A stretch of 49,598 nt of DNA from a candidate division WWE3 bacterium (lineage in GTDB: Bacteria > Patescibacteriota > WWE3 > JAUXAW01). This document shows, in pieces, positions 3,748 through 46,374 of this stretch. The stretch spans positions 1 to 49,598 of the forward strand of contig JAUXAW010000004.1 of NCBI GenBank assembly GCA_030619715.1, written 5' to 3'. Each line of letters opens with the position of its first letter. Within the stretch, counting starts at the first letter, position 1. The notes beneath the pieces were generated by a model. The model did no database searches. It worked only from the letters and a program-made list of their open reading frames with translations, and was not told the origin of the DNA. The translations under genes and the position numbers were made by a program.

Positions 3748-6225
3748 ATGGAAAAAGTTGAAAAATACCAGCCTTCGAAAGTTGAAAAAAAGTGGCAAAA
3801 ATTTTGGGAAGAAAAGAAGCTTTACAAAACTCCGGACAAATCAAAAAAGCAAAAGCTTTTCGTTTTGGATATGTTCCCGTACCCTTCCGGCGCCGGTTTG
3901 CATATAGGGCATGTGCGCATCTACACCGCCTCCGATATTGTGGCTCGCTATTTTCGGATGAAGGGTTACAATGTCTTGCACCCAATGGGTTGGGACGCTT
4001 TCGGACTCCCGGCGGAGAACGCTGCTATCAAAAATAAAGTCCACCCCAGCAAATTAGTTCCCAAAAATATCACCGGCTGCAAGCAGCAGATGCAGTCCCT
4101 TGGTTTCTCCTATGATTGGGAGCGCGAGTTTTCCACCGCCGACCCCTCCTACTACAAATGGACCCAATGGCTATTTCTTAAGTTTTACAAACAGGGACTT
4201 TTGTACCAAAAGAAAGTTCCCATTAACTGGTGCGAGCACTGCAAAACCGGATTGGCCAACGAAGAGGTTCTGCCCGGGGGAATTCACGAGCGCTGCGGGA
4301 AGCCCGTCGTTAAACGGGAGATGAAACAGTGGCTTTTTCGGATTACCGACTATGCCGACCGACTTTTGTGGGATCTTGACGGTCTGGACTGGCCGCAGTC
4401 GATTATTGAGATGCAGCGGAATTGGATCGGCCGCTCCGAAGGGACGGAAATAAAATTCAAAATTCAAAATTCAAAATTCAAAGTTGACGAAATTACAGTT
4501 TTCACCACCAGACCGGACACGATTTTCGGGGTTACGGCTCTGGTTCTGGCCCCCGAACACCCAGTCGTCGCTTCGCTCCTAAGTTCAAAGTTAAAAGTTC
4601 AAAATTCAAAGTTGAGCGAGGTTCGTAGGTACGTTGAGCAATCAAAACGCAAATCGGAATTGGAGCGCACCGAACTTAAAGAAAAAACCGGTGTTGATAC
4701 CGGTCTTTTTGCGATCAACCCCGTCAACAACGAAAAAATTCCTATCTGGGTTGCCGACTACGTCATTGGTTGGTACGGTGGGGGGGCGGTGATGCTCGTT
4801 CCCGCCCATGACCGGCGCGACTACGCGTTTGCCAAAAAGTACAACTTGCCGGTAAGGTCGGTAATTTCGCCAAACAAAGAGGAGGAACGTCTGCCCGATC
4901 GTCAGGAGCAGGCTTTCGAGGGGGAGGGGACACTAATTGACTCGGAAGAATTTAGCGGAATGTACTCGGCCGATGCTCGTCAGCGCATCACCGAATGGTT
5001 GGAGAAGAAGGGTTTTGGGCGGAGAGCTGTTTCTTACAAACTGCGCGATTGGATTTTTTCCCGCCAGCGTTATTGGGGTGAGCCGATTCCTCTGATTCAC
5101 TGCCAAAAATGCGGTGTGGTTCCGGTTCCCGAGGAGGAGCTACCGGTAGAGTTACCTTACGTCGAAAAGTACGAGCCGACGGGGACGGGGGAGAGTCCTT
5201 TAGCCGCGATTAAGGAGTGGGTAGAAGTACCTTGCCCCGAGTGTGGCAAGGGGGCGCGAAGGGAAACGGACACGATGCCCAACTGGGCCGGCTCTTGCTG
5301 GTACTTCTTGAGATTTGCCGATCCGAAAAACGACCGTGAGCCCTTCAGCAGGAAGATGCTTAAGAGATTTTTGCCGGTTGATTGGTATTTGGGTGGGGCC
5401 GAGCACGCCGTTTTGCATCTTTTATACAGCCGTTTTTGGATTAAGGCACTTTGTGATCTGGGTTTGGTCAAGTTTAAGGAACCTTTCTTGAGGTTGCGGG
5501 GGGTCGGGATGGTTCAAGGCGAAGGCGGCCGCAAGATGAGCAAAAGTTTTGGTAATATCGTTAACCCCGATGAGGTAATTGAGGCCTTTGGGGCCGATAC
5601 ACTGCGGGTTTACGAGATGTTCATGGGGCCTTTTGGTCAAGCCATCAACTGGAATACTTCAGGCGTCGAAGGCGCCCACCGCTTCCTAAAGAAGGTTTGG
5701 TCTCTTTCCTCTGGTCCCTCTTACCCTTCTGGTACCTCTGGTTCCCCTGATTCCTCTCCTCTCCGCCGTCAGCTCCATCGCCTGATCAAGAAAGTAGGGG
5801 AGGACATCGAAAACATCAAATTCAACACCGCCATCGCCGCGATGATGGAATTTCTGAACTTCGTCCAGGCGGATGAGGGTGGGATGTCAGCGGAGGAGTG
5901 GGGGATTTTCCTGCGGCTTCTGGCCCCCTTCGCCCCGCATATAGCAGAGGAGCTGTGGCCGCAGCACCCTAACTCCATCCATCTCCAGCCCTGGCCCGAG
6001 TATGACCCCCGCCTTCTGGAAGAGGAGGAAGTTACAATCATCGTCCAGGTCGACGGTAAGGTCCGCGACCGTATCAAGGTCAAAAGAGATACCGCACGTG
6101 CAGACCTTTACAATTTAGCGGTTCGACGGCCGAATATTAAACGTTTCCTCTCCGGTAGGCGGGTGAAGGAAATGTATCTCGTTCCCAACCGTTTAATTAA
6201 CTTCGCCACCGAATCTAAAACTTAA
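3748..6225 (+). CDS. leuS: Leucyl-tRNA synthetase
   Basis: Class I aaRS: MFPYPSGAGLHIGH, editing domain TTRPDTIFG, KMSKS. Start chosen at MEKVEKYQPSK. Confidence 0.95.
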   Translation: MEKVEKYQPSKVEKKWQKFWEEKKLYKTPDKSKKQKLFVLDMFPYPSGAGLHIGHVRIYTASDIVARYFRMKGYNVLHPMGWDAFGLPAENAAIKNKVHPSKLVPKNITGCKQQMQSLGFSYDWEREFSTADPSYYKWTQWLFLKFYKQGLLYQKKVPINWCEHCKTGLANEEVLPGGIHERCGKPVVKREMKQWLFRITDYADRLLWDLDGLDWPQSIIEMQRNWIGRSEGTEIKFKIQNSKFKVDEITVFTTRPDTIFGVTALVLAPEHPVVASLLSSKLKVQNSKLSEVRRYVEQSKRKSELERTELKEKTGVDTGLFAINPVNNEKIPIWVADYVIGWYGGGAVMLVPAHDRRDYAFAKKYNLPVRSVISPNKEEERLPDRQEQAFEGEGTLIDSEEFSGMYSADARQRITEWLEKKGFGRRAVSYKLRDWIFSRQRYWGEPIPLIHCQKCGVVPVPEEELPVELPYVEKYEPTGTGESPLAAIKEWVEVPCPECGKGARRETDTMPNWAGSCWYFLRFADPKNDREPFSRKMLKRFLPVDWYLGGAEHAVLHLLYSRFWIKALCDLGLVKFKEPFLRLRGVGMVQGEGGRKMSKSFGNIVNPDEVIEAFGADTLRVYEMFMGPFGQAINWNTSGVEGAHRFLKKVWSLSSGPSYPSGTSGSPDSSPLRRQLHRLIKKVGEDIENIKFNTAIAAMMEFLNFVQADEGGMSAEEWGIFLRLLAPFAPHIAEELWPQHPNSIHLQPWPEYDPRLLEEEEVTIIVQVDGKVRDRIKVKRDTARADLYNLAVRRPNIKRFLSGRRVKEMYLVPNRLINFATESKT

Positions 6226-6337
6226 ACCCACTAAAGGTCCTTGGCAATGAGTACGGCTAACTGCCAACCCAACTTTTCTGTGTAGACTAATCCCGTACAA
6301 CATTACTGTTGTAGCCTTGCGGGTTCTCGTTTACCCT

Positions 6338-6347
6338 CACGATCGTG
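6338..6347. promoter_or_regulatory. Palindrome CACGATCGTG, upstream operator copy
   Basis: Inverted repeat 73 bp (about 7 helical turns) upstream of the second copy at 6411. Confidence 0.6.
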
Positions 6348-6362
6348 GGTTTAATACAAACC

Positions 6363-6391
6363 TTGACAAACATGTCTCTGTGTTGTATGAT
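6363..6391 (+). promoter_or_regulatory. Promoter TTGACA-17 bp-TATGAT of the PaaX-like gene
   Basis: TTGACA 6363-6368, TATGAT 6386-6391, 17 bp spacer. Confidence 0.75.
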
Positions 6392-6410
6392 CTCCCTTGA
6401 AAGTTAGTCT

Positions 6411-6420
6411 CACGATCGTG
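6411..6420. promoter_or_regulatory. Palindrome CACGATCGTG between promoter and start codon of the PaaX-like gene
   Basis: Lies between the -10 box (6386-6391) and the ATG (6426). Confidence 0.65.
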
Positions 6421-6425
6421 AAATT

Positions 6426-7235
6426 ATGTCTGATCAAACTAAACCACAAAAGAAAAAACGGGGGAAGAAGAAGGGGCGGGCGTATCTTGGGAGAAAGATT
6501 CTTCGCGTCCTTTCCGCCGCCGCGGAGGCCCTTGACACCTTTGGGGACTTTACCTACAATCCCTATCCCTACCTCTACGCCTCGTTGGGGATGTCATACC
6601 GTAAGGAGCACATTGATGAGGCCGTTCGTGATTTGACCAAAAAAGGTTTGGTGGAGGGCAACAAAAGTGAGGGTCTGCGCCTCACCTCCGCAGGTGCGGA
6701 TGTTAAGAAAAGCCTTTACCAAGCCCGTCAGAAGGAATGGGACGGTAAATGGCGGGTGGTCTTTTTTGACATCCCCGAGGTCCAGAGGGATATCCGCGAC
6801 GGTCTGCGCTTTGAGCTGAAAAAACTGGGATTTGGCCTGTGGCAGCGGTCGGCTTGGGTAACCCCTTTTGACATCGCCGTGGAGCTTAATGCTTATTTGC
6901 AAAAACAAGATCTCTCCGAAGTGGTGCAGATTGTGGTGGGGGAGAGGCTTGGCGAATTAAACGATCGGGAGTTTGCCGCACAAATTTGGCCGCTAAACGA
7001 CCTTAACGAGAGATACGCCCGACTCCTGACTGGTTGGGCGGAGGAGCTCAAAAAGGAAAGTACCGCCGAGGAGAGGCTTCGAGCAGTGCTTGCTTTCCAC
7101 GACCGCTACCTTGATATCTTAGCCTCTGATCCGCAATTGCCGCCTAAACTTCTTCCCGGTCACTGGGTTGGTGACGATGCTCGAGAGCTATTCAAAAAAT
7201 TAAAGTCTATTCTGACTGTAGGTAAGCCATTCTGA
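6426..7235 (+). CDS. PaaX-family transcriptional regulator (winged HTH + Cas2-like fold)
   Basis: DGKWRVVFFDIPEVQRDIRDGLRFELKKLGFGLWQRSAWVTPFD...VVQIVVGERLGE matches the PaaX pattern. N-terminal HTH with a basic Lys/Arg-rich leader. Confidence 0.8.
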   Translation: MSDQTKPQKKKRGKKKGRAYLGRKILRVLSAAAEALDTFGDFTYNPYPYLYASLGMSYRKEHIDEAVRDLTKKGLVEGNKSEGLRLTSAGADVKKSLYQARQKEWDGKWRVVFFDIPEVQRDIRDGLRFELKKLGFGLWQRSAWVTPFDIAVELNAYLQKQDLSEVVQIVVGERLGELNDREFAAQIWPLNDLNERYARLLTGWAEELKKESTAEERLRAVLAFHDRYLDILASDPQLPPKLLPGHWVGDDARELFKKLKSILTVGKPF

Positions 7236-7243
7236 TGGTGGAT

Positions 7244-7267
7244 TTTAATTCACGATCGTGAATTAAA
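7244..7267. promoter_or_regulatory. 24-bp perfect palindrome TTTAATTCACGATCGTGAATTAAA, 11 bp upstream of the comEA-like ATG
   Basis: Sequence equals its own reverse complement. Confidence 0.7.
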
Positions 7268-7278
7268 GTTTCACAATT

Positions 7279-7956
7279 ATGGAGTCTCTGCCCAAAGCCC
7301 TTCTCAATAAATACCGGTTGCCGCTTGGTGTTTTTCTGATTTTGGCCATCGTGGCCGGTGGGGGAATGCTGGCTCTCACGGGGAGCAGGAGGGGTGGTTC
7401 GGAGATCGAGAAAGTTGAGGTTGAGGCGACTGCCAGCGGTGCTCTGTCTCCGGTGACAAAGATCAAGGTTGATGTTGCTGGCGCGGTCAAAAACCCCGGC
7501 GTTTATGAACTCCTTGAAGATGGTCGTGTTGAGGATGCTCTAAACGCCGCCGGGGGATTTTCGGAGCAGGTAGATAAAGATTGGGTCGCCAAAAACTTGA
7601 ATTTAGCCGCTAAACTCTCCGACGGAGATAAACTCTACATCCCTAAAGTGGGAGAGACCTCCACTTCCTCTTCGGCTACAAACGAGCCCGCTCCCGCATC
7701 AGTTCCACCTTCTGCTGGTGTGGTTTCGGGGACTGAAATCTTGGGTCCCTCGAATTGCTCTCGTGTCAACATCAATACGGCCTCCGCAGGTACGTTGGCT
7801 GATTGTCTATCGGGAATTGGGGAAAGCAAGGCTCAGAGTATCATTAAGTACCGTGAGGATCACGGTGGTTTTAAAAGTATTGGGGAGATTCAAGAGGTTA
7901 GCGGTATTGGCCCCAAGACTTTTGAGAAGATTAAGAGCCAAATCACTGTGGATTGA
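7279..7956 (+). CDS. comEA: ComEA-like DNA-binding protein (TM + SLBB + helix-hairpin-helix)
   Basis: VDVAGAVKNPGVYEL (SLBB) and VNINTASAGTLADCLSGIGESKAQSIIKYREDHGGFKSIGEIQEVSGIGPKTFEKIK (HhH). Confidence 0.9.
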   Translation: MESLPKALLNKYRLPLGVFLILAIVAGGGMLALTGSRRGGSEIEKVEVEATASGALSPVTKIKVDVAGAVKNPGVYELLEDGRVEDALNAAGGFSEQVDKDWVAKNLNLAAKLSDGDKLYIPKVGETSTSSSATNEPAPASVPPSAGVVSGTEILGPSNCSRVNINTASAGTLADCLSGIGESKAQSIIKYREDHGGFKSIGEIQEVSGIGPKTFEKIKSQITVD

Positions 7957-12358: not shown

Positions 12359-13384
12359 ATGTTCAATCTTCCCACCTTCAACCTCTCCCGCAAAGTGGCC
12401 ATCGACCTCGGGACGGCGAACTCCCTTGTTTATGTTGCCGGGCAAGGGATTGTTTTGAACGAACCGACGGTGGTGGCGATTACCACCGATGACAACAAAG
12501 TTGTTGCCGTAGGTACGGAGGCCAAGGAAATGCTGGGGCGAACGCCGGTTAACATCTCCGCCTCGCGGCCGATGCGCGACGGAGTTATCGCCGATTATCT
12601 GATCACCGAGGCGATGCTCAAATACTTTTTGGGAAAAGCTTGCGGTCGGACGCGAATTTTTAAGCCCGAGGTGATGGTCTCGGTCCCCTCGGGAGTTACT
12701 TCGGTTGAGTCGCGGGCGGTCCTTGACGCAACTGTCTCCGCCGGGGCCAAGGAGGCCTATCTTATCCCCGAGCCTTTAGCCGCGGCGGTAGGGGCCAGGA
12801 TTCCCATCAGTGAGCCCTCGGGTAGTATGGTTATCAACATCGGTGGGGGAACGGTGGAGGTGGCAGTGATTTGCCTTGGTGGCTTGGTTGTTTCTAACTC
12901 CGCACGTGTGGCTGGTAATCAAATTGATGAGGCGATTGCCAACCATCTCCGTCGGACCTACAACCTGATCGTCGGCGACCGCACCGCGGAGATGATCAAA
13001 ATCCAGATCGGCTCAGCCCTGCCGTTGGATGACAATCCCACGTTGGAGGTTAAAGGGCGCGACGCGATTGCCGGTCTGCCGCGGACGGTCGAGCTGACCT
13101 CACACGAGGTCACCGAGGCCATCCAGCCACCGCTGAAGGGGATTGTAGGTGCGATCAAGAATGTTCTAGAGCAGACGCCGCCGGAGCTTTCCTCGGACGT
13201 GATTGACAAGGGGATGGTTTTGACCGGGGGGACAGCTCTTTTAAGAAATATTGACAAGTTTTTGACACAGTCCACCGGCGTCCCTGCCCACATCGCCGAA
13301 AATCCAATCTTGTGCGTAGTTTACGGCGTCGGGACGGCGATTGAGAATCTAGATGTTTTCAAAAAGAGTGTCAGAAAGAGATGA
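12359..13384 (+). CDS. MreB/Mbl-like actin homologue (orphan paralogue)
   Basis: VAIDLGTANSLVYVAGQGIVLNEPTVVAI, INIGGGTVEVAVICLGG, VLTGGTALLRNIDKFL. Confidence 0.9.
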   Translation: MFNLPTFNLSRKVAIDLGTANSLVYVAGQGIVLNEPTVVAITTDDNKVVAVGTEAKEMLGRTPVNISASRPMRDGVIADYLITEAMLKYFLGKACGRTRIFKPEVMVSVPSGVTSVESRAVLDATVSAGAKEAYLIPEPLAAAVGARIPISEPSGSMVINIGGGTVEVAVICLGGLVVSNSARVAGNQIDEAIANHLRRTYNLIVGDRTAEMIKIQIGSALPLDDNPTLEVKGRDAIAGLPRTVELTSHEVTEAIQPPLKGIVGAIKNVLEQTPPELSSDVIDKGMVLTGGTALLRNIDKFLTQSTGVPAHIAENPILCVVYGVGTAIENLDVFKKSVRKR

Positions 13385-14505
13385 TCATCGGATTTGACGC
13401 CAGCCGAGCGCAGCTTCCTGAAAGAGCCGGTCCGGAAAATTACACCTATAATCTTTTAAGGGAGCTTTTAAAGATAGATCGTTGGAACCGCTATCGGTTG
13501 TACTGCAACAACCTTTTGGATTTTGAGCTACCCACCGCTAACTACGAGTTGCGTATCATCAGCTGGCCAAGACTTTGGACTCAAGGCGGATTGGCCCTTG
13601 AGTGTTTAAAAAACCCGCCCGATATTCTCTTCGTTCCCGCACATACGATTCCGATTATCCGGCGTCCGGACTTGAAAACGGTCGTGACGATTCACGACGT
13701 TGGTTTTCAGAAATATCTAAAAACCTACCAGCGTTGGTGGGGAAGACTGTATGAAGGCCGGGTTTCCAACTACGCTGCCCGAGCGGCAACTCATGTCATT
13801 GCCGTCTCCGAATCTACAAAAAAAGATTTGATCGAAAAGCTTGGTGTTAAGCCAGATAAAATAACGGTTATCTATGAGGGAGTAGACCATAGGAAATTCA
13901 AAGTGCAAAGTGCAAAGTTCAAAATTGACCACGTGAAACGGGGATATGATATTGGAGGGGAATATTTGTTGTTCGTAGGTACGATTCAACCGCGGAAAAA
14001 TCTGGTACGCCTCATCGAAGCATTCAAAAAAACACGGAGTCCCCAAATCTCCCTAATAGTAGTCGGGAAGAAGGGCTGGTTGTCTGACGAAATCTACAAC
14101 GCCCCAAAGAAGTTTGGGATGGAGGACAGAGTAAAATTTTTAGGCTACGTACCTACGGATGATATTGTTTCGTTGATGAACGGGGCTTTGGCGTTTGTCT
14201 TTCCTTCGCTGTATGAGGGCTTTGGCCTGCCGGTTTTGGAGGCAATGGCCTGTGGCTGTCCGGTCGTTACCTCGAGCATCTCCTCCCTGCCGGAGGTCGT
14301 TGGTGACGCGGGGATTTTGGTTGATCCTTATGATGTTGAGGACATCGCGCGGGGGATTAGCGTGATTTTAGAGCTCGACGAAGCACAACGCCGAAATTTG
14401 GTTGATGCGGGGTTGGAGCGGGCTCGGAAATTCACTTGGGAAGAAACAGCTAAGCAGACGATCAAAGTCCTGGTCCCGGAAGATATGTTTAATTCACGAT
14501 CGTGA
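13381..14505 (+). CDS. Glycosyltransferase family 4 (group 1)
   Basis: [47 protein letters not shown]. Confidence 0.92.
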
Positions 14506-14511
14506 ATTAAA
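14488..14511. promoter_or_regulatory. 24-bp perfect palindrome TTTAATTCACGATCGTGAATTAAA overlapping the GT4 stop codon, upstream of the tagA-like gene
   Basis: Encodes the terminal ...NSRS-stop; identical to 7244-7267. Confidence 0.7.
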
Positions 14512-14543: not shown

Positions 14544-15350
14544 ATGGAGCGTATTAATATCTTAGGTGTTAAAGTTAGCAGAGTTACCTATGAATATGCT
14601 ATTAAGATTATTGAGGGTTTTCTAACCGATGAGGGGAAACACCAAATTGTCACCCCTAACCCGGAGTTTGTTGTTTTGGCCCAAAAGGATTTGGAATTTC
14701 GTACGATTCTCAACCGAGCTGATTTAACCGTTCCCGACGGGGTCGGTTTGCGAGTGGCGGCGAAGTTTCTCTCCCTGCCTACATTTAATTTCACGATCGT
14801 GAAATTTTTTCAGCTTCTATTTCAGGGTCTTCTCGTAGGTGCAGCAGCAGTTTTTAAGCCCTCGTTTCTTGACGTGTTACCCCACACAGTGACCGGAACG
14901 GATTTGATGCTTGGATTGTGTGATCTGGCATCGAAAAAAGGTTATTCTGTTTTTCTTTTGGGCGGTCGGGGTGGGGCAGCGGAGGCGGCGGCTAAGCGTT
15001 TGAAGGTGCGGTTTGCCAATTTAAACATCATCGGCACGTATGAAGGTGGTTCGTGGGAGGAGTTTGAAGGAAAGACAGCCGATTTTCTCTTCGTCGCCTA
15101 CGGTGCGCCCAAACAGGAAAAATGGATCGCCCGAAATCTTCCCAAAATTTCGGTCAAGGTGGCGATGGGGGTTGGAGCAGGCATTGATTTTACCGCCGGA
15201 AGGAAAAAAAGAGCTCCGGGAATTTTGCGCCGTTTGGGTTTCGAGTGGCTCTGGCGTTTGGTGCAAGAACCCTTCCGTCTGAGGCGAATCCTTAATGCCA
15301 CTGTTAAATTCCCCCTGCTGGTTTTTTGGCAGAAGTTAAGTCAAAAATAA
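14544..15350 (+). CDS. WecG/TagA/CpsF-family glycosyltransferase
   Basis: HQIVTPNPEFVVLAQKD, LTVPDGVGLRVAAK, VTGTDLMLGLCDLA, FVAYGAPKQEKWI, MGVGAGIDFTAGRKKRAP. Confidence 0.92.
   Translation: MERINILGVKVSRVTYEYAIKIIEGFLTDEGKHQIVTPNPEFVVLAQKDLEFRTILNRADLTVPDGVGLRVAAKFLSLPTFNFTIVKFFQLLFQGLLVGAAAVFKPSFLDVLPHTVTGTDLMLGLCDLASKKGYSVFLLGGRGGAAEAAAKRLKVRFANLNIIGTYEGGSWEEFEGKTADFLFVAYGAPKQEKWIARNLPKISVKVAMGVGAGIDFTAGRKKRAPGILRRLGFEWLWRLVQEPFRLRRILNATVKFPLLVFWQKLSQK
14787..14806. promoter_or_regulatory. 20-bp palindrome AATTTCACGATCGTGAAATT inside the tagA-like CDS
   Basis: Perfect palindrome, encodes NFTIVKF. Confidence 0.55.
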
Positions 15351-20971: not shown

Positions 20972-22459
20972 ATGGGGAAGTCTGGAAAATCGAAAAAGAA
21001 AAAGTTGAAAGTTTTGATTGCGGCGTCGGAGTGTGCGCCATTTGTTAAGGTCGGTGGGTTGGCGGATGTGGTTGGGTCTTTGCCCAAAGCGCTCGAAAAG
21101 ATAAACGTTGACGTTCGTGTGGTTATTCCTTACTACAAGGAAGTGCAAAGTTCAAAGTTCAAAGTTCAAAGTTGCAATTCAAAGTTCAAAGTTAAGTTTG
21201 GGAGAGCCGAAGAGGTCGGCGTTTACGAATCGAGATTGCCTGGTTCCGAGGTTCCCATCTACTTTTTGGAAAATCAAAAGTACCTCTCCGGTGGGGGAGT
21301 TTACTTCAGCAAGGATGCTTTTGTTTCCAGTCAAGAGGAGATTAGAAGGTTTGCCTTTTTCTCAAAAGCCGTTGTTGAGTTTATTAAAGTGAGTGAACGG
21401 AAGCCCGATGTGGTTCACTGCAACGATTGGCACACCGGTTTAGTGCCGGGATTGATTAAAAGTTCAAAGTTGGGACATTCCGCAACTGTCTTCACCATTC
21501 ACAATTTAGCCAACCAGGGGTTCGCTGAATTGAGTATTTTGAAGAATTTAAACTCTATCACTCCTGAATCTGAACTGATAAGATGGGACGCAGAGGATGA
21601 TAACCTCGACCTTATGCTCCAAGGCGTCACCGCCGCCGATGTCGTTAGCACTGTCAGTCCGAGCTATGCTAAGGAGATTTTGACCCCCGAATTTGGCGAG
21701 GGGCTCCATCAAGTGCTAAAAGCACGGGAAGCCCGTCTCTTTGGTATCCTCAACGGAATCGACTACCAAATTTGGAATCCGGAGATGGATCAAAAGATCG
21801 AGTTCAACTACGGGCTCAAGGAGGGTCCGGCAGGCAAAGTGGGCAACAAGATTTATCTGCAGAAAGAGCTGGGTTTGACCGTCAATCCCGAGGTTCCTCT
21901 CATTGGAGTGGTTACTCGTCTGGCCGAGCAGAAGGGCATTGACATTCTCCTGGAGGCTCTGAAGGGTATTTTGGCTTTTGGGGCGCAGTTGGTGATTTTG
22001 GGAGTAGGTGATCCAAAAATTGAGAAAGAATTAAGGATTAAGAACGAAGAATTAAGGGAAAAGGGGAGCTTCAAGGCGATTATTAGGTTTGACGAAGAGC
22101 TCGCTCACCGTATCTACGCCGCTTCCGACCTCTTTCTGATGCCCTCCAAGTTTGAACCCTGCGGTCTGGTGCAGATTATTGCCATGCGCTACGGAGCCCT
22201 ACCGATCGTCAGGGAAACCGGGGGGCTTAAGGACACGGTCGAAGACGCCAAAACGGGGTTTGTCTTCAGGGAATACTCGGCCGAGGCTCTACTGGAAGTG
22301 GTTGAGCGTGCGGCTGGTCGCTTCGGCGTTGAAAATATTGAGTTTCGGCAAATGATTAGCAGAGCGATGCAAGCGGATTTTTCTTGGGAACGTTCGGCCG
22401 GGGAGTATTTACAACTCTATCAACGTGCGTTAGAATATAAGAACCTGCAATCCGCCTAA
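20972..22459 (+). CDS. glgA: Glycogen/starch synthase (GT5), copy 2
   Basis: LKVLIAASECAPFVKVGGLADVVGSLPKAL, VVHCNDWHTGLVPG, PSKFEPCGLVQIIAMRYGALPIVRETGGLKDTV. Confidence 0.93.
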   Translation: MGKSGKSKKKKLKVLIAASECAPFVKVGGLADVVGSLPKALEKINVDVRVVIPYYKEVQSSKFKVQSCNSKFKVKFGRAEEVGVYESRLPGSEVPIYFLENQKYLSGGGVYFSKDAFVSSQEEIRRFAFFSKAVVEFIKVSERKPDVVHCNDWHTGLVPGLIKSSKLGHSATVFTIHNLANQGFAELSILKNLNSITPESELIRWDAEDDNLDLMLQGVTAADVVSTVSPSYAKEILTPEFGEGLHQVLKAREARLFGILNGIDYQIWNPEMDQKIEFNYGLKEGPAGKVGNKIYLQKELGLTVNPEVPLIGVVTRLAEQKGIDILLEALKGILAFGAQLVILGVGDPKIEKELRIKNEELREKGSFKAIIRFDEELAHRIYAASDLFLMPSKFEPCGLVQIIAMRYGALPIVRETGGLKDTVEDAKTGFVFREYSAEALLEVVERAAGRFGVENIEFRQMISRAMQADFSWERSAGEYLQLYQRALEYKNLQSA

Positions 22460-28043: not shown

Positions 28044-28051
28044 AATGTTTA

Positions 28052-28067
28052 ATTCACGATCGTGAAT
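28052..28067. promoter_or_regulatory. Palindrome ATTCACGATCGTGAAT between AmrS and Memo-like genes
   Basis: Lies 8 bp upstream of the Memo-like start; flank GTTTA...TAAAAAC. Confidence 0.65.
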
Positions 28068-28079
28068 AAAAACTCACCC

Positions 28080-34519: not shown

Positions 34520-34543
34520 TTTAATTCACGATCGTGAATTAAA
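34520..34543. promoter_or_regulatory. 24-bp perfect palindrome TTTAATTCACGATCGTGAATTAAA between dprA and topA
   Basis: Identical to 7244-7267 and 14488-14511. Confidence 0.7.
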
Positions 34544-36865: not shown

Positions 36866-36875
36866 CACGATCGTG
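36866..36875. promoter_or_regulatory. Palindrome CACGATCGTG (degenerate flanks) downstream of topA
   Basis: TTAAACGCACGATCGTGAATTTAAA. Confidence 0.55.
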
Positions 36876-37012
36876 AATTTAAATAGTTCATCGATCAGAA
36901 CCGTTGAACTTTTCCAAAAACTTTTCCAAACAAAAAGGAGGAGGCGTGCACGAATCTGACACGGAATTCTATGCAGCACCCCCTCTTCTGCTGCTAGGGT
37001 CGATAGCCTTTG

Positions 37013-37558: not shown

Positions 37559-38434
37559 ATGTTAAGTGCGGAAAAAATCACTTTGGAAGAATTGCTGGAT
37601 GCGGGGGTGCATTTTGGGCATCAGCGGAGAAGATGGCACCCGCGAATGGCTTCGTATATCTATACCGAGGAAAAGGGTGTCCACATCCTCGATTTGGCTA
37701 AAACCCGCGAGCACCTCATTGCCGCCGCCAAGTTTCTTTACCAAACCGCCAAAGACGGGGGGACAATTATTTTTGTTGGGACCAAGCGTCAGGCCAAAGA
37801 TATTGTTGAGCGGGAGGCCCAGCGCTGTGGGGCGATGTTTGTTACCGAGCGTTGGCTGGGGGGTCTTCTCACCAACTTCGATAGTGTTAAAATAAATATG
37901 GAGCGGCTCAATGATTTGACGGAAAAACGCGAAAAAGGCGAGCTGGCTCACTACACCAAAAAGGAGCGGCTCGAGATTGACCGCAAGATTAAAAAATTAG
38001 AAACCTTTGTTGGGGGAATTAGGGATTTGAAAGAGTTGCCCGACACCATCGTTTTGGCCAGTGCCCGCAAGGAGCAGGTCGCCGTCCGTGAGGCCAATCG
38101 CAAGGGAATTCCGCTGGTGGCCATCGTGGACACCAACGCCGACCCGCGGCCGATTGACTATCTAATTCCGGGCAACGATGACGCACGTAAGAGCCTCGCT
38201 CTGCTTTTCAGGATTCTCGCCGATGCCGTTTTGGAGGGTGGGGGAGGTGAGGTCGAAGAGGAAGAGGCCAAAAAGACCGAGCTGGATTCTTTGGGTCTTT
38301 CCACCCGCAGCCGGAACGCGCTCAAAAAAGCGGGAATCGAGACAACTGAACAGCTGCAGAGGATGACGGAGGAGGAACTGACGAAGATCAAGGGATTAGG
38401 AAAGAAATCGGTTGAGGAAATTTTGAAAAAATAA
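37559..38434 (+). CDS. rpsB: 30S ribosomal protein S2 with C-terminal RNAP alpha-CTD/HhH-like extension
   Basis: S2 core LLDAGVHFGHQRRRWHPRM, FVGTKRQAKDIV, RWLGGLLTNF; tail LDSLGLSTRSRNALKKAGIETTEQLQRMTEEELTKIKGLGKKSVEEILKK. Confidence 0.95.
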   Translation: MLSAEKITLEELLDAGVHFGHQRRRWHPRMASYIYTEEKGVHILDLAKTREHLIAAAKFLYQTAKDGGTIIFVGTKRQAKDIVEREAQRCGAMFVTERWLGGLLTNFDSVKINMERLNDLTEKREKGELAHYTKKERLEIDRKIKKLETFVGGIRDLKELPDTIVLASARKEQVAVREANRKGIPLVAIVDTNADPRPIDYLIPGNDDARKSLALLFRILADAVLEGGGGEVEEEEAKKTELDSLGLSTRSRNALKKAGIETTEQLQRMTEEELTKIKGLGKKSVEEILKK

Positions 38435-40830: not shown

Positions 40831-42276
40831 ATGGAGTTTGAGAAGAAGGAAATTGTTAAAAAGTCAGAGGATTTTTCCCGCTGGTATACCGATGTTATTT
40901 TGAAGGCGGAGTTGGCGGATTACGCGCCAGTTAAGGGCTGTATGGTCATTCGGCCCTACGGTTATGCTCTCTGGGAGGGGGTACAAAAACATCTGGGGCA
41001 GGCGATCAAGGACTCCGGTGTCCCCAACGCCTATTTTCCTCTTTTTATCCCTCATTCTTTTTTGGAAAAAGAAAAGGAACACGTCAAGGGCTTTTCGCCG
41101 GAGCTGGCGGTGGTCACCCACGGCGGCGGTAAAAAGTTGGCCGAGCCGTTGGTCGTCCGCCCAACCTCGGAGACGATTATGTATCCGATGTTCGCCAAGT
41201 GGATTCAAAGCTGGCGCGATCTTCCCTTTAAAATTAACCAGTGGTGCAATATTGTCCGCTGGGAGCTGCGGACCTACCTCTTTCTGCGGACTTTAGAATT
41301 TTTATGGCAAGAGGGTCACACCGCCCACGCGACCCACGAAGAGGCCGAGGAAGAGGCTCTGGCTCGGCTCGAAATGTACAGGAGGTTTGTCGAAGGGGTG
41401 TTGGCAATTCCGACGATCGTTGGCAAAAAATCAGGCGCGGAAAAGTTTGCCGGAGCGGAAGATACTTACACCGTCGAAGCCCTAATGCCCGATGGTAAGG
41501 CCTTGCAGTGCGGGACTTCCCACAATTTGGGTCAAAATTTTGCCAAGGCGTTTGAGATTCAGTTTCAGGATAAGAATGGTCAGTTGCAGCACGTTTATCA
41601 AACCAGTTGGGGACTTTCGACGCGGATAATTGGTGCTCTAATTATGGTCCACGGTGATGACAACGGTTTGGTTCTGCCGCCGGAAATTGCGCCGATTCAA
41701 GTCGTTGTTGTCCCGATTGGAGAAAAATCTCAAATGTCAAATCTCAAATTTCAAAACCACATCTCAAATCTCAAAACTGACTTGGAAACTGCTGGCATTC
41801 GTGTGAAAATTGACGATCGCGAGGAACGCAGTGTGGGGTGGAAATTTAACGAATGGGAATTGAAAGGCGTGCCGGTTCGCATAGAGATAGGTTCGCAAGA
41901 AATTAAGAACAAATCAGTTACGGTAGTCAGAAGAGATACCGGAGAAAAATCCCAAATCCCAAATCCCAAATCCCAAACGGAAATAGAAAGAATTCTTGAC
42001 GATATTCAGCAAAATCTTTACCAAAAAGCCCAAAAGTCCCTAAAGGAAAACACCCACGAAGTAGGGGATTACGCAGAATTCAAAAAGATTATGTCCGGGC
42101 CACGGGGATTTATCAAGGCCTTTTGGTGCGGCTCGGCCGAGTGCGAAGCAAAAATTAAGGAGGAAACAAAGGCGACGATCCGGGCCATTCCTCTCAAACC
42201 AGAAAAAACTTTGGGTAAGTGTGTTTTCTGTGGCCAACCCGCATCCTCCCGTGTTTTCTTCGCCCAGGCGTACTAG
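40831..42276 (+). CDS. proS: Prolyl-tRNA synthetase (ProS type 3-like)
   Basis: FSRWYTDVILKAELADYAPVKGCMVIRPYGYALWE, VRPTSETIMYPMFAKWIQSWRDLPFKINQWCNIVRWE. Confidence 0.95.
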   Translation: MEFEKKEIVKKSEDFSRWYTDVILKAELADYAPVKGCMVIRPYGYALWEGVQKHLGQAIKDSGVPNAYFPLFIPHSFLEKEKEHVKGFSPELAVVTHGGGKKLAEPLVVRPTSETIMYPMFAKWIQSWRDLPFKINQWCNIVRWELRTYLFLRTLEFLWQEGHTAHATHEEAEEEALARLEMYRRFVEGVLAIPTIVGKKSGAEKFAGAEDTYTVEALMPDGKALQCGTSHNLGQNFAKAFEIQFQDKNGQLQHVYQTSWGLSTRIIGALIMVHGDDNGLVLPPEIAPIQVVVVPIGEKSQMSNLKFQNHISNLKTDLETAGIRVKIDDREERSVGWKFNEWELKGVPVRIEIGSQEIKNKSVTVVRRDTGEKSQIPNPKSQTEIERILDDIQQNLYQKAQKSLKENTHEVGDYAEFKKIMSGPRGFIKAFWCGSAECEAKIKEETKATIRAIPLKPEKTLGKCVFCGQPASSRVFFAQAY

Positions 42277-45757: not shown

Positions 45758-46374
45758 TGGTCGTTCCAAAGTCCATCAAAAACCTGATTGAAGCTTTCGA
45801 AAGACTCCCAGGGATTGGTCCCAAGACCGCGGCACGACTGACTTTTTATCTTTTACACGTGCCGGAAGCTGAAGTTGAGGCCTTAGCCGAGGCCGTCGAG
45901 CGGCTCAAAAAAGATACAGTCACCTGTCAAACTTGTTTTAATGTTGCCGAAAGCGACCCTTGCGAAATTTGTTCGTCGTCGCAGCGGAACCGCGCGGTTC
46001 TGGCCGTCGTCGAATCACCTTTGGATGTTCTCGCCCTGGAGCGCGCCGGTTTCAGGGGGCTTTATCATGTTCTTCAAGGAGTAATTGATCCTCTGAATAA
46101 CATCGGGCCGGAGGAGTTGAGGATTAAGGAGTTGTTGCACCGTTTTGCGCCCTCGGCCTCTGCGGTGAAGGAGATAATCCTCGCCACTAACCCCTCCGTC
46201 GAAGGCGAGGCGACGGCAATGTTTATTAAACGAAATCTCAAATCTCGAATCTCAAATCTCAAAACTCCAATCAAGATGACCAGATTAGCTCGGGGGCTTC
46301 CCGTCGGAGGAGACTTGGAGTATGCCGACGATGTAACCTTAGGCAAGGCGCTGGAGGGAAGGACGGAATATTAG
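45757..46374 (+). CDS. recR: Recombination protein RecR
   Basis: LIEAFERLPGIGPKTAARLTFYLL, CQTCFNVAESDPCEIC, Toprim VVESPLDVLALE, TRLARGLPVGGDLEYADDVTLGKALEGR. Confidence 0.95.
   Translation: MVVPKSIKNLIEAFERLPGIGPKTAARLTFYLLHVPEAEVEALAEAVERLKKDTVTCQTCFNVAESDPCEICSSSQRNRAVLAVVESPLDVLALERAGFRGLYHVLQGVIDPLNNIGPEELRIKELLHRFAPSASAVKEIILATNPSVEGEATAMFIKRNLKSRISNLKTPIKMTRLARGLPVGGDLEYADDVTLGKALEGRTEY

Follow-up and report, generated by a model that had tools for sequence, protein, structure and literature searches.

A PaaX-like gene and its flanking palindromes in a WWE3 bacterium: a candidate REP-RAYT-like cassette of Patescibacteria

What connects a PaaX-family gene of a candidate division WWE3 bacterium with the palindromes that surround it? 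The gene (269 aa, positions 6426–7235, plus strand) lies in the 49 598-nucleotide stretch of contig JAUXAW010000004.1 analysed here, referred to as the window. Its σ70-type promoter (6363–6391, plus strand) consists of a TTGACA (6363–6368) and a TATGAT box (6386–6391) separated by 17 bp, which together match the consensus at 11 of 12 positions. The palindrome core CACGATCGTG occurs 5′ of this promoter (6338–6347), between the −10 box and the start codon (6411–6420, with the ATG 5 bp further on) and again at 7251–7260. The third core is part of TTTAATTCACGATCGTGAATTAAA, a perfect 24-bp palindrome (7244–7267) between the stop codon of the paaX-like gene and the start of comEA at 7279. The copies at 6338 and 6411 have weak arms, with approximately four and five pairs among the first 10, and only their 10-bp core is intact. 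The initial annotation had described these palindromes, the promoter and a spacing of 73 bp between the two upstream copies, all of which we found as reported. No paa genes were seen beside the gene. A 10-nt perfect inverted repeat, TTAAACCCAC/GTGGGTTTAA (6222–6231 and 6345–6354), connects the end of leuS with the first palindrome copy. Many short 7-bp tandem repeats (AAAATTC, AAGTTCA, AAATCTC) are scattered over the window, some of them within ORFs; the sites include 4452–4482, 4581–4613 (in the leuS ORF), 21141–21193, 41725–41775 and 46233–46272.

Assignment of the gene to the PaaX family, proposed from the sequence alone, held up in profile searches. The protein scored 80.4 bits with PaaX_M (1.1e-22; cut-off 24) and 44.8 bits with PaaX_C (1.7e-11; cut-off 22), in both cases above the gathering score, and 91.5 bits with the PaaX equivalog TIGR02277, which is below the NCBI cut-off of 264.55. 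It combines a winged helix–turn–helix (wHTH), a Cas2-like domain and a PaaX_C domain. The best PDB match of its AlphaFold2 model (pLDDT 85.6) was E. coli PaaX (8a39, E = 7e-10), followed by Rv0674 and 3l09; Cas2 proteins matched more weakly, and VapD/Cas2 RNases were among the fold neighbours. In an alignment of 20 sequences, Asp115, Arg124, Arg128 and Ser142 of the Cas2-like domain were invariant. The Asp of its FDIPE motif is present in all aligned forms and, as judged by eye, missing at the corresponding place in E. coli PaaX. The window protein was absent from the matches to the Cas2 model TIGR01573 (cut-off 24.5 bits). Four of the six short relatives scanned (L054, L034, L123 and L110) exceeded this cut-off with scores of 25–33, and genes of this kind may therefore appear as orphan cas2 in annotations. 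An HUH pattern was present in 2 of 45 PaaX-like proteins, with no conserved His.

The core is not confined to the paaX-like gene. The window contains eight copies of CACGATCGTG, compared with 0.02 expected, and the complete 674-kb genome, read as stretches around palindrome sites, contains 15, compared with none of the reversed control pattern. The 24-mer TTTAATTCACGATCGTGAATTAAA is exact not only at 7244 but also at 14488–14511 (core 14495), where it overlaps the stop codon of a glycosyltransferase gene (13381–14505), and at 34520–34543 (core 34527), between dprA and topA; with one mismatch it recurs at 28048–28071 (core 28055), between radical-SAM and LigB/Memo genes. Two further copies are located behind topA (36866–36875) and within a WecG/TagA-family ORF (14792–14801 in 14544–15350), in the stretch preceding a conserved TVTGTDL segment. 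An insertion into the WecG/TagA gene is only suggested by this position, as the additional stretch may also occur in related proteins. One of the 15 genomic copies (C31:8243) falls within thrS and may be a chance occurrence. Repeats of the AACTTTT type, partly spaced by 9 bp, lie approximately 20–30 bp from the palindrome at four loci of this genome (L005 5999–6045, L007 6349–6386, L009 3274–3369 and L010 6033–6143) and beside the window copy at 36866, where the tandem repeat is AACTTTTCCAAA (36907–36930). A ribosomal protein S2 ORF of the window (37559–38431) carries a C-terminal match to the RNA polymerase alpha CTD (PF03118, 1.7e-18, residues 233–291) and thus represents an S2–αCTD fusion.

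Such counts might reflect a coincidence of base composition or a methylation or restriction motif, given that the core contains GATC and that GC-rich genomes without a PaaX_M match also contain the 10-mer repeatedly. Many genomes with at least four copies of the 10-mer indeed lack such a match. At 28 sites in five of them, the surroundings had 44–67% GC and the arms paired at a mean of 2.9 of 10 positions, which is the chance level. Mean arm pairing was 6.9 of 10 in the PaaX-positive genomes G223, G380 and G345 and 5.9 of 10 in the WWE3 genome itself (P about 1e-5 against 2.9). The 10-mer was therefore rejected as a genome-wide DNA signature, as it is armless, and located in ORFs where checked, in genomes without PaaX_M. 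Palindromic arms were found only in PaaX-positive genomes, which shows that the structured palindrome rather than the 10-mer is associated with PaaX. Together with the excess over expectation and over the reversed control, the set of armed palindromes tied to PaaX-like genes makes coincidence or a methylation motif extremely improbable. Hence, of the co-occurrence of motif and regulator, the part concerning the bare 10-mer proved unspecific, whereas the armed palindrome follows the regulator.

The association extends beyond this species. The 18-mer AATTCACGATCGTGAATT was detected at 14 loci, several of them in Patescibacteria (Nomurabacteria, Staskawiczbacteria, Vogelbacteria); the remaining ones are in other phyla, mostly within coding sequence, and look like chance matches. 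Seven genomes reached through the AATTCACGATCGTGAATT loci contain 2 to 10 copies of the 10-mer each, and in the motif-selected genomes G056, G057, G058, G059 and G060 PaaX_M genes are enclosed by two copies. Loci fetched by a PaaX_M search, including those from genera picked without regard to the motif (L109–L128), showed an identical layout with other cores, such as CACGGCCGTG, GACGGCCGTC, CGCGGCCGCG and more. At a strict threshold, 30 of 36 genes at these loci had a palindrome, and 60 palindromes in 142 kb compared with 0 in shuffled sequences. Among 45 distinct PaaX-like proteins, 36 were encoded next to palindromes, which flanked 25 of the genes on both sides and 11 on one side; 9 had none. 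These palindromes are long and near-perfect, and each gene has its own arm sequence. The nine palindrome-free genes include four long forms (260–309 aa), two genes at contig edges and L098, probably a false ORF. Long forms, which share the architecture of the window protein, are otherwise palindrome-free, so that the window gene is an exception.

Flanking palindromes were not found at E. coli paaX and three plasmid homologues used as controls, TTCACGATCGTGAA did not occur among 45 class relatives, and matches in phages and plasmids were limited to distant ordinary PaaX. Within the phylum, PaaX_M is present in 122 of 381 genomes, in as many as 11 copies; G057 has 13. Gene and palindrome are thus repeatedly linked. 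The connection between regulator and motif, proposed in the initial annotation and seen again wherever PaaX_M genes in genomes of this phylum are enclosed by CACGATCGTG-cored palindromes, is strongly supported at the sequence level. The classic autorepressor layout suggested there was correct in joining the two and too narrow in its operator, because CACGATCGTG represents a single case among many palindromes, each specific to a gene.

When the two palindromes flanking a gene are compared, 382 of 473 pair positions agree. Of the 91 differing pairs, 49 are complementary in both palindromes and 37 are broken in one; the L108 cassette, which may be misaligned, contributes 10 of the 49 compensated differences. 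Since these compensated changes affect both arms, palindromy is maintained either by selection or by restoration through a template-switch mechanism. Orthologues at one locus retain their gene-specific arms (ATCACATTATTT in L112/L124 and ATCTTA[GT]GTAAAAA in L117/L122), and this across species at about 65–68% DNA identity. Coevolution of arms and proteins across the whole family was rejected, as Mantel tests revealed no significant correlation between arm and protein similarity.

Compensatory arm changes would also fit palindromes that act in the transcript, forming hairpins or terminators or being targeted by a Cas2/VapD-like RNase. The position of many palindromes behind genes, the Cas2-like domain with its invariant Asp and the VapD/Cas2 RNases among the fold neighbours point in this direction. 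However, the terminator reading was rejected for lack of a T-tract: the 8 nt 3′ of downstream palindromes contain 2.8 T on average and at least five T in only 5 of 34 cases, and no terminator was predicted at 7244. G·T mismatches did not clearly exceed A·C mismatches (15 to 10) and hence gave no sign of RNA wobble pairing. Furthermore, some upstream palindromes are located at the −35 position and would therefore be outside the transcript. We regard a function in RNA as improbable.

The position of the upstream palindromes points instead to the promoter. In 9 of 28 cases, the distance from the palindrome centre to the start of a −10-like (TATAAT-like) box is 17 bp (the next commonest offset accounts for 6 cases), and in these nine the left half-core (TTGACG, TTCACG) occupies the place of the −35 box. 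Thus, the palindrome covers the −35/spacer region. In G058, 14 of the 18 directions have a weaker box, GAAAAT, at +16; these counts are not independent because the sites are copies of one repeat. The window differs in that its promoter lies between two palindrome copies. Overlap with the promoter in some relatives fits autorepression by the PaaX-like protein, which we consider likely on this indirect evidence. Of the claims made in the initial annotation, autorepression is accordingly plausible in view of these nine cases, but species differ in whether a given locus carries the cassette, which is unexpected for a resident autoregulated regulator. Nothing speaks for the looping-competent operators that it also proposed.

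Autorepression would also suit a plain transcription factor with a small regulon, in which the dispersed copies serve as operators of comEA, topA and genes near the pil cluster. In favour of this view, PaaX-family proteins act as repressors, and E. coli PaaX does so at its own promoter (PMC9493321); some upstream palindromes overlap a promoter; in the window, a core separates the promoter from the start codon; and several sites in the organism's own genome have competence or DNA-processing genes nearby (comEA, dprA, pil cluster). Nevertheless, automatic ORF calling in the WWE3 genome and in G056, G058, G059 and G060 placed most dispersed copies 3′ of stop codons, where the adjoining genes are codirectional or convergent; a single case was clearly divergent. 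No −10 box was found at a fixed distance from the copies in the WWE3 genome. The location of the copies mainly behind genes makes a classical regulon unlikely, and we rejected it as the main reading on the basis of site placement; the differences between species in cassette presence at corresponding loci also argue against it. A small regulon is therefore an unlikely explanation, although the most serious of those discussed so far.

These differences were found in one genus (g181), in which filled and empty versions of the same site, the mark of a mobile element, exist at three loci. Between pyrB and pgl, a cassette is present in G247 and G334 and absent from G401, which has a 78-bp gap; G327 has a solitary palindrome at this place and G281 a different, oppositely oriented and unrelated cassette. 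Between macB and NDH, G247 and G388 carry a cassette that G212, G401 and G327 lack. The third locus, secA–lemA, is filled in G327 and empty in G401 and G334. At secA–lemA, a compact divergent promoter region common to G401 and G334 appears, by eye, to be split in G327, an arrangement more in keeping with gain in G327 than with loss elsewhere. The nearest relative found for the G327 secA–lemA protein (69% identity) is encoded at a different place in G334. We found no target-site duplication at these insertions, whose exact ends cannot be placed: G327 contains extra sequence outside the palindromes, and the intergenic DNA of G327 and G401 is too diverged. At three locus pairs the cassette was retained at the same place between species.

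The explanation that we favour, and hold to be rather probable on the sequence evidence, is a palindrome-flanked, REP-RAYT-like cassette whose wHTH and Cas2-like protein binds and represses at its own palindromes and which has been gained at new sites. The cassette would consist of a PaaX-type gene and, on either side of it, one copy of a long palindrome that belongs to this gene alone. The PaaX-type protein, probably as a dimer, would bind these palindromes, and occupation of the upstream one would block the promoter of the gene itself. The downstream and dispersed copies would originate from the cassette and provide additional binding sites, REP-like rather than operators of a regulon. Cassettes would be gained at new intergenic sites, and the protein may drive this spread; we know of no mechanism of movement for PaaX or Cas2 folds. 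Presumably the 269-aa cassette of the window acts like the short forms. For the window, mobility is less certain than for the short forms, because its gene is a long form, a group in which palindromes are otherwise missing. More tentatively, and with doubts that outweigh our confidence, such cassettes may form a new class of prokaryotic mobile elements in which the wHTH–Cas2-like protein uses the Cas2 Asp to recognize and process its own palindromes and spreads both cassettes and solo palindromes; many 'orphan cas2' annotations in Patescibacteria would then refer to genes of this class.

Several known systems resemble the cassette in part. REP-associated tyrosine transposase (RAYT) genes lie between REPs in inverted orientation, and complementary mutations keep these REPs palindromic (PMC2817692). 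Here as well, a gene lies between two palindromes (for the window gene, those at 6411 and 7251), dispersed and mainly extragenic copies occur elsewhere, and palindromy is preserved through complementary mutations. In contrast, the wHTH and Cas2-like protein is unrelated to the HUH/Tyr transposase, the palindromes are near-perfect, a GTAG, GGAG or CGTC head was found at none of 126 ends (GTGG at 2), and there are about 2–15 copies per genome compared with more than 100 for REPs. E. coli PaaX, the repressor of phenylacetate catabolism (8a39, also 3l09), shares family, fold and autoregulation (PMC9493321) and differs in the absence of flanking palindromes and, by eye, of the FDIPE Asp. Its reported site, TGATTC(N27)GAATCA, has another spacing, in line with the earlier remark that the operator seen here is unlike known PaaX sites. 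The Cas2/VapD ferredoxin-like nucleases have in common with all aligned forms the Cas2-like domain with the FDIPE Asp; here this domain is fused to a wHTH, the window protein remains below the Cas2 model and a nuclease role is putative.

Among the papers searched, none joined PaaX with Patescibacteria or PaaX with Cas2, and the cassette is apparently an undescribed, self-contained and possibly mobile genetic unit. If this reading is right, Patescibacteria with their reduced genomes bear up to 13 gene-plus-palindrome units per genome, which would have been overlooked because their protein looks like a catabolic regulator or like Cas2. The reading would also link PaaX-type regulators in a testable way to Cas2-fold nucleases and to palindromic repeats, and the small, well-defined DNA sites would make binding, autorepression and movement accessible to experiment.
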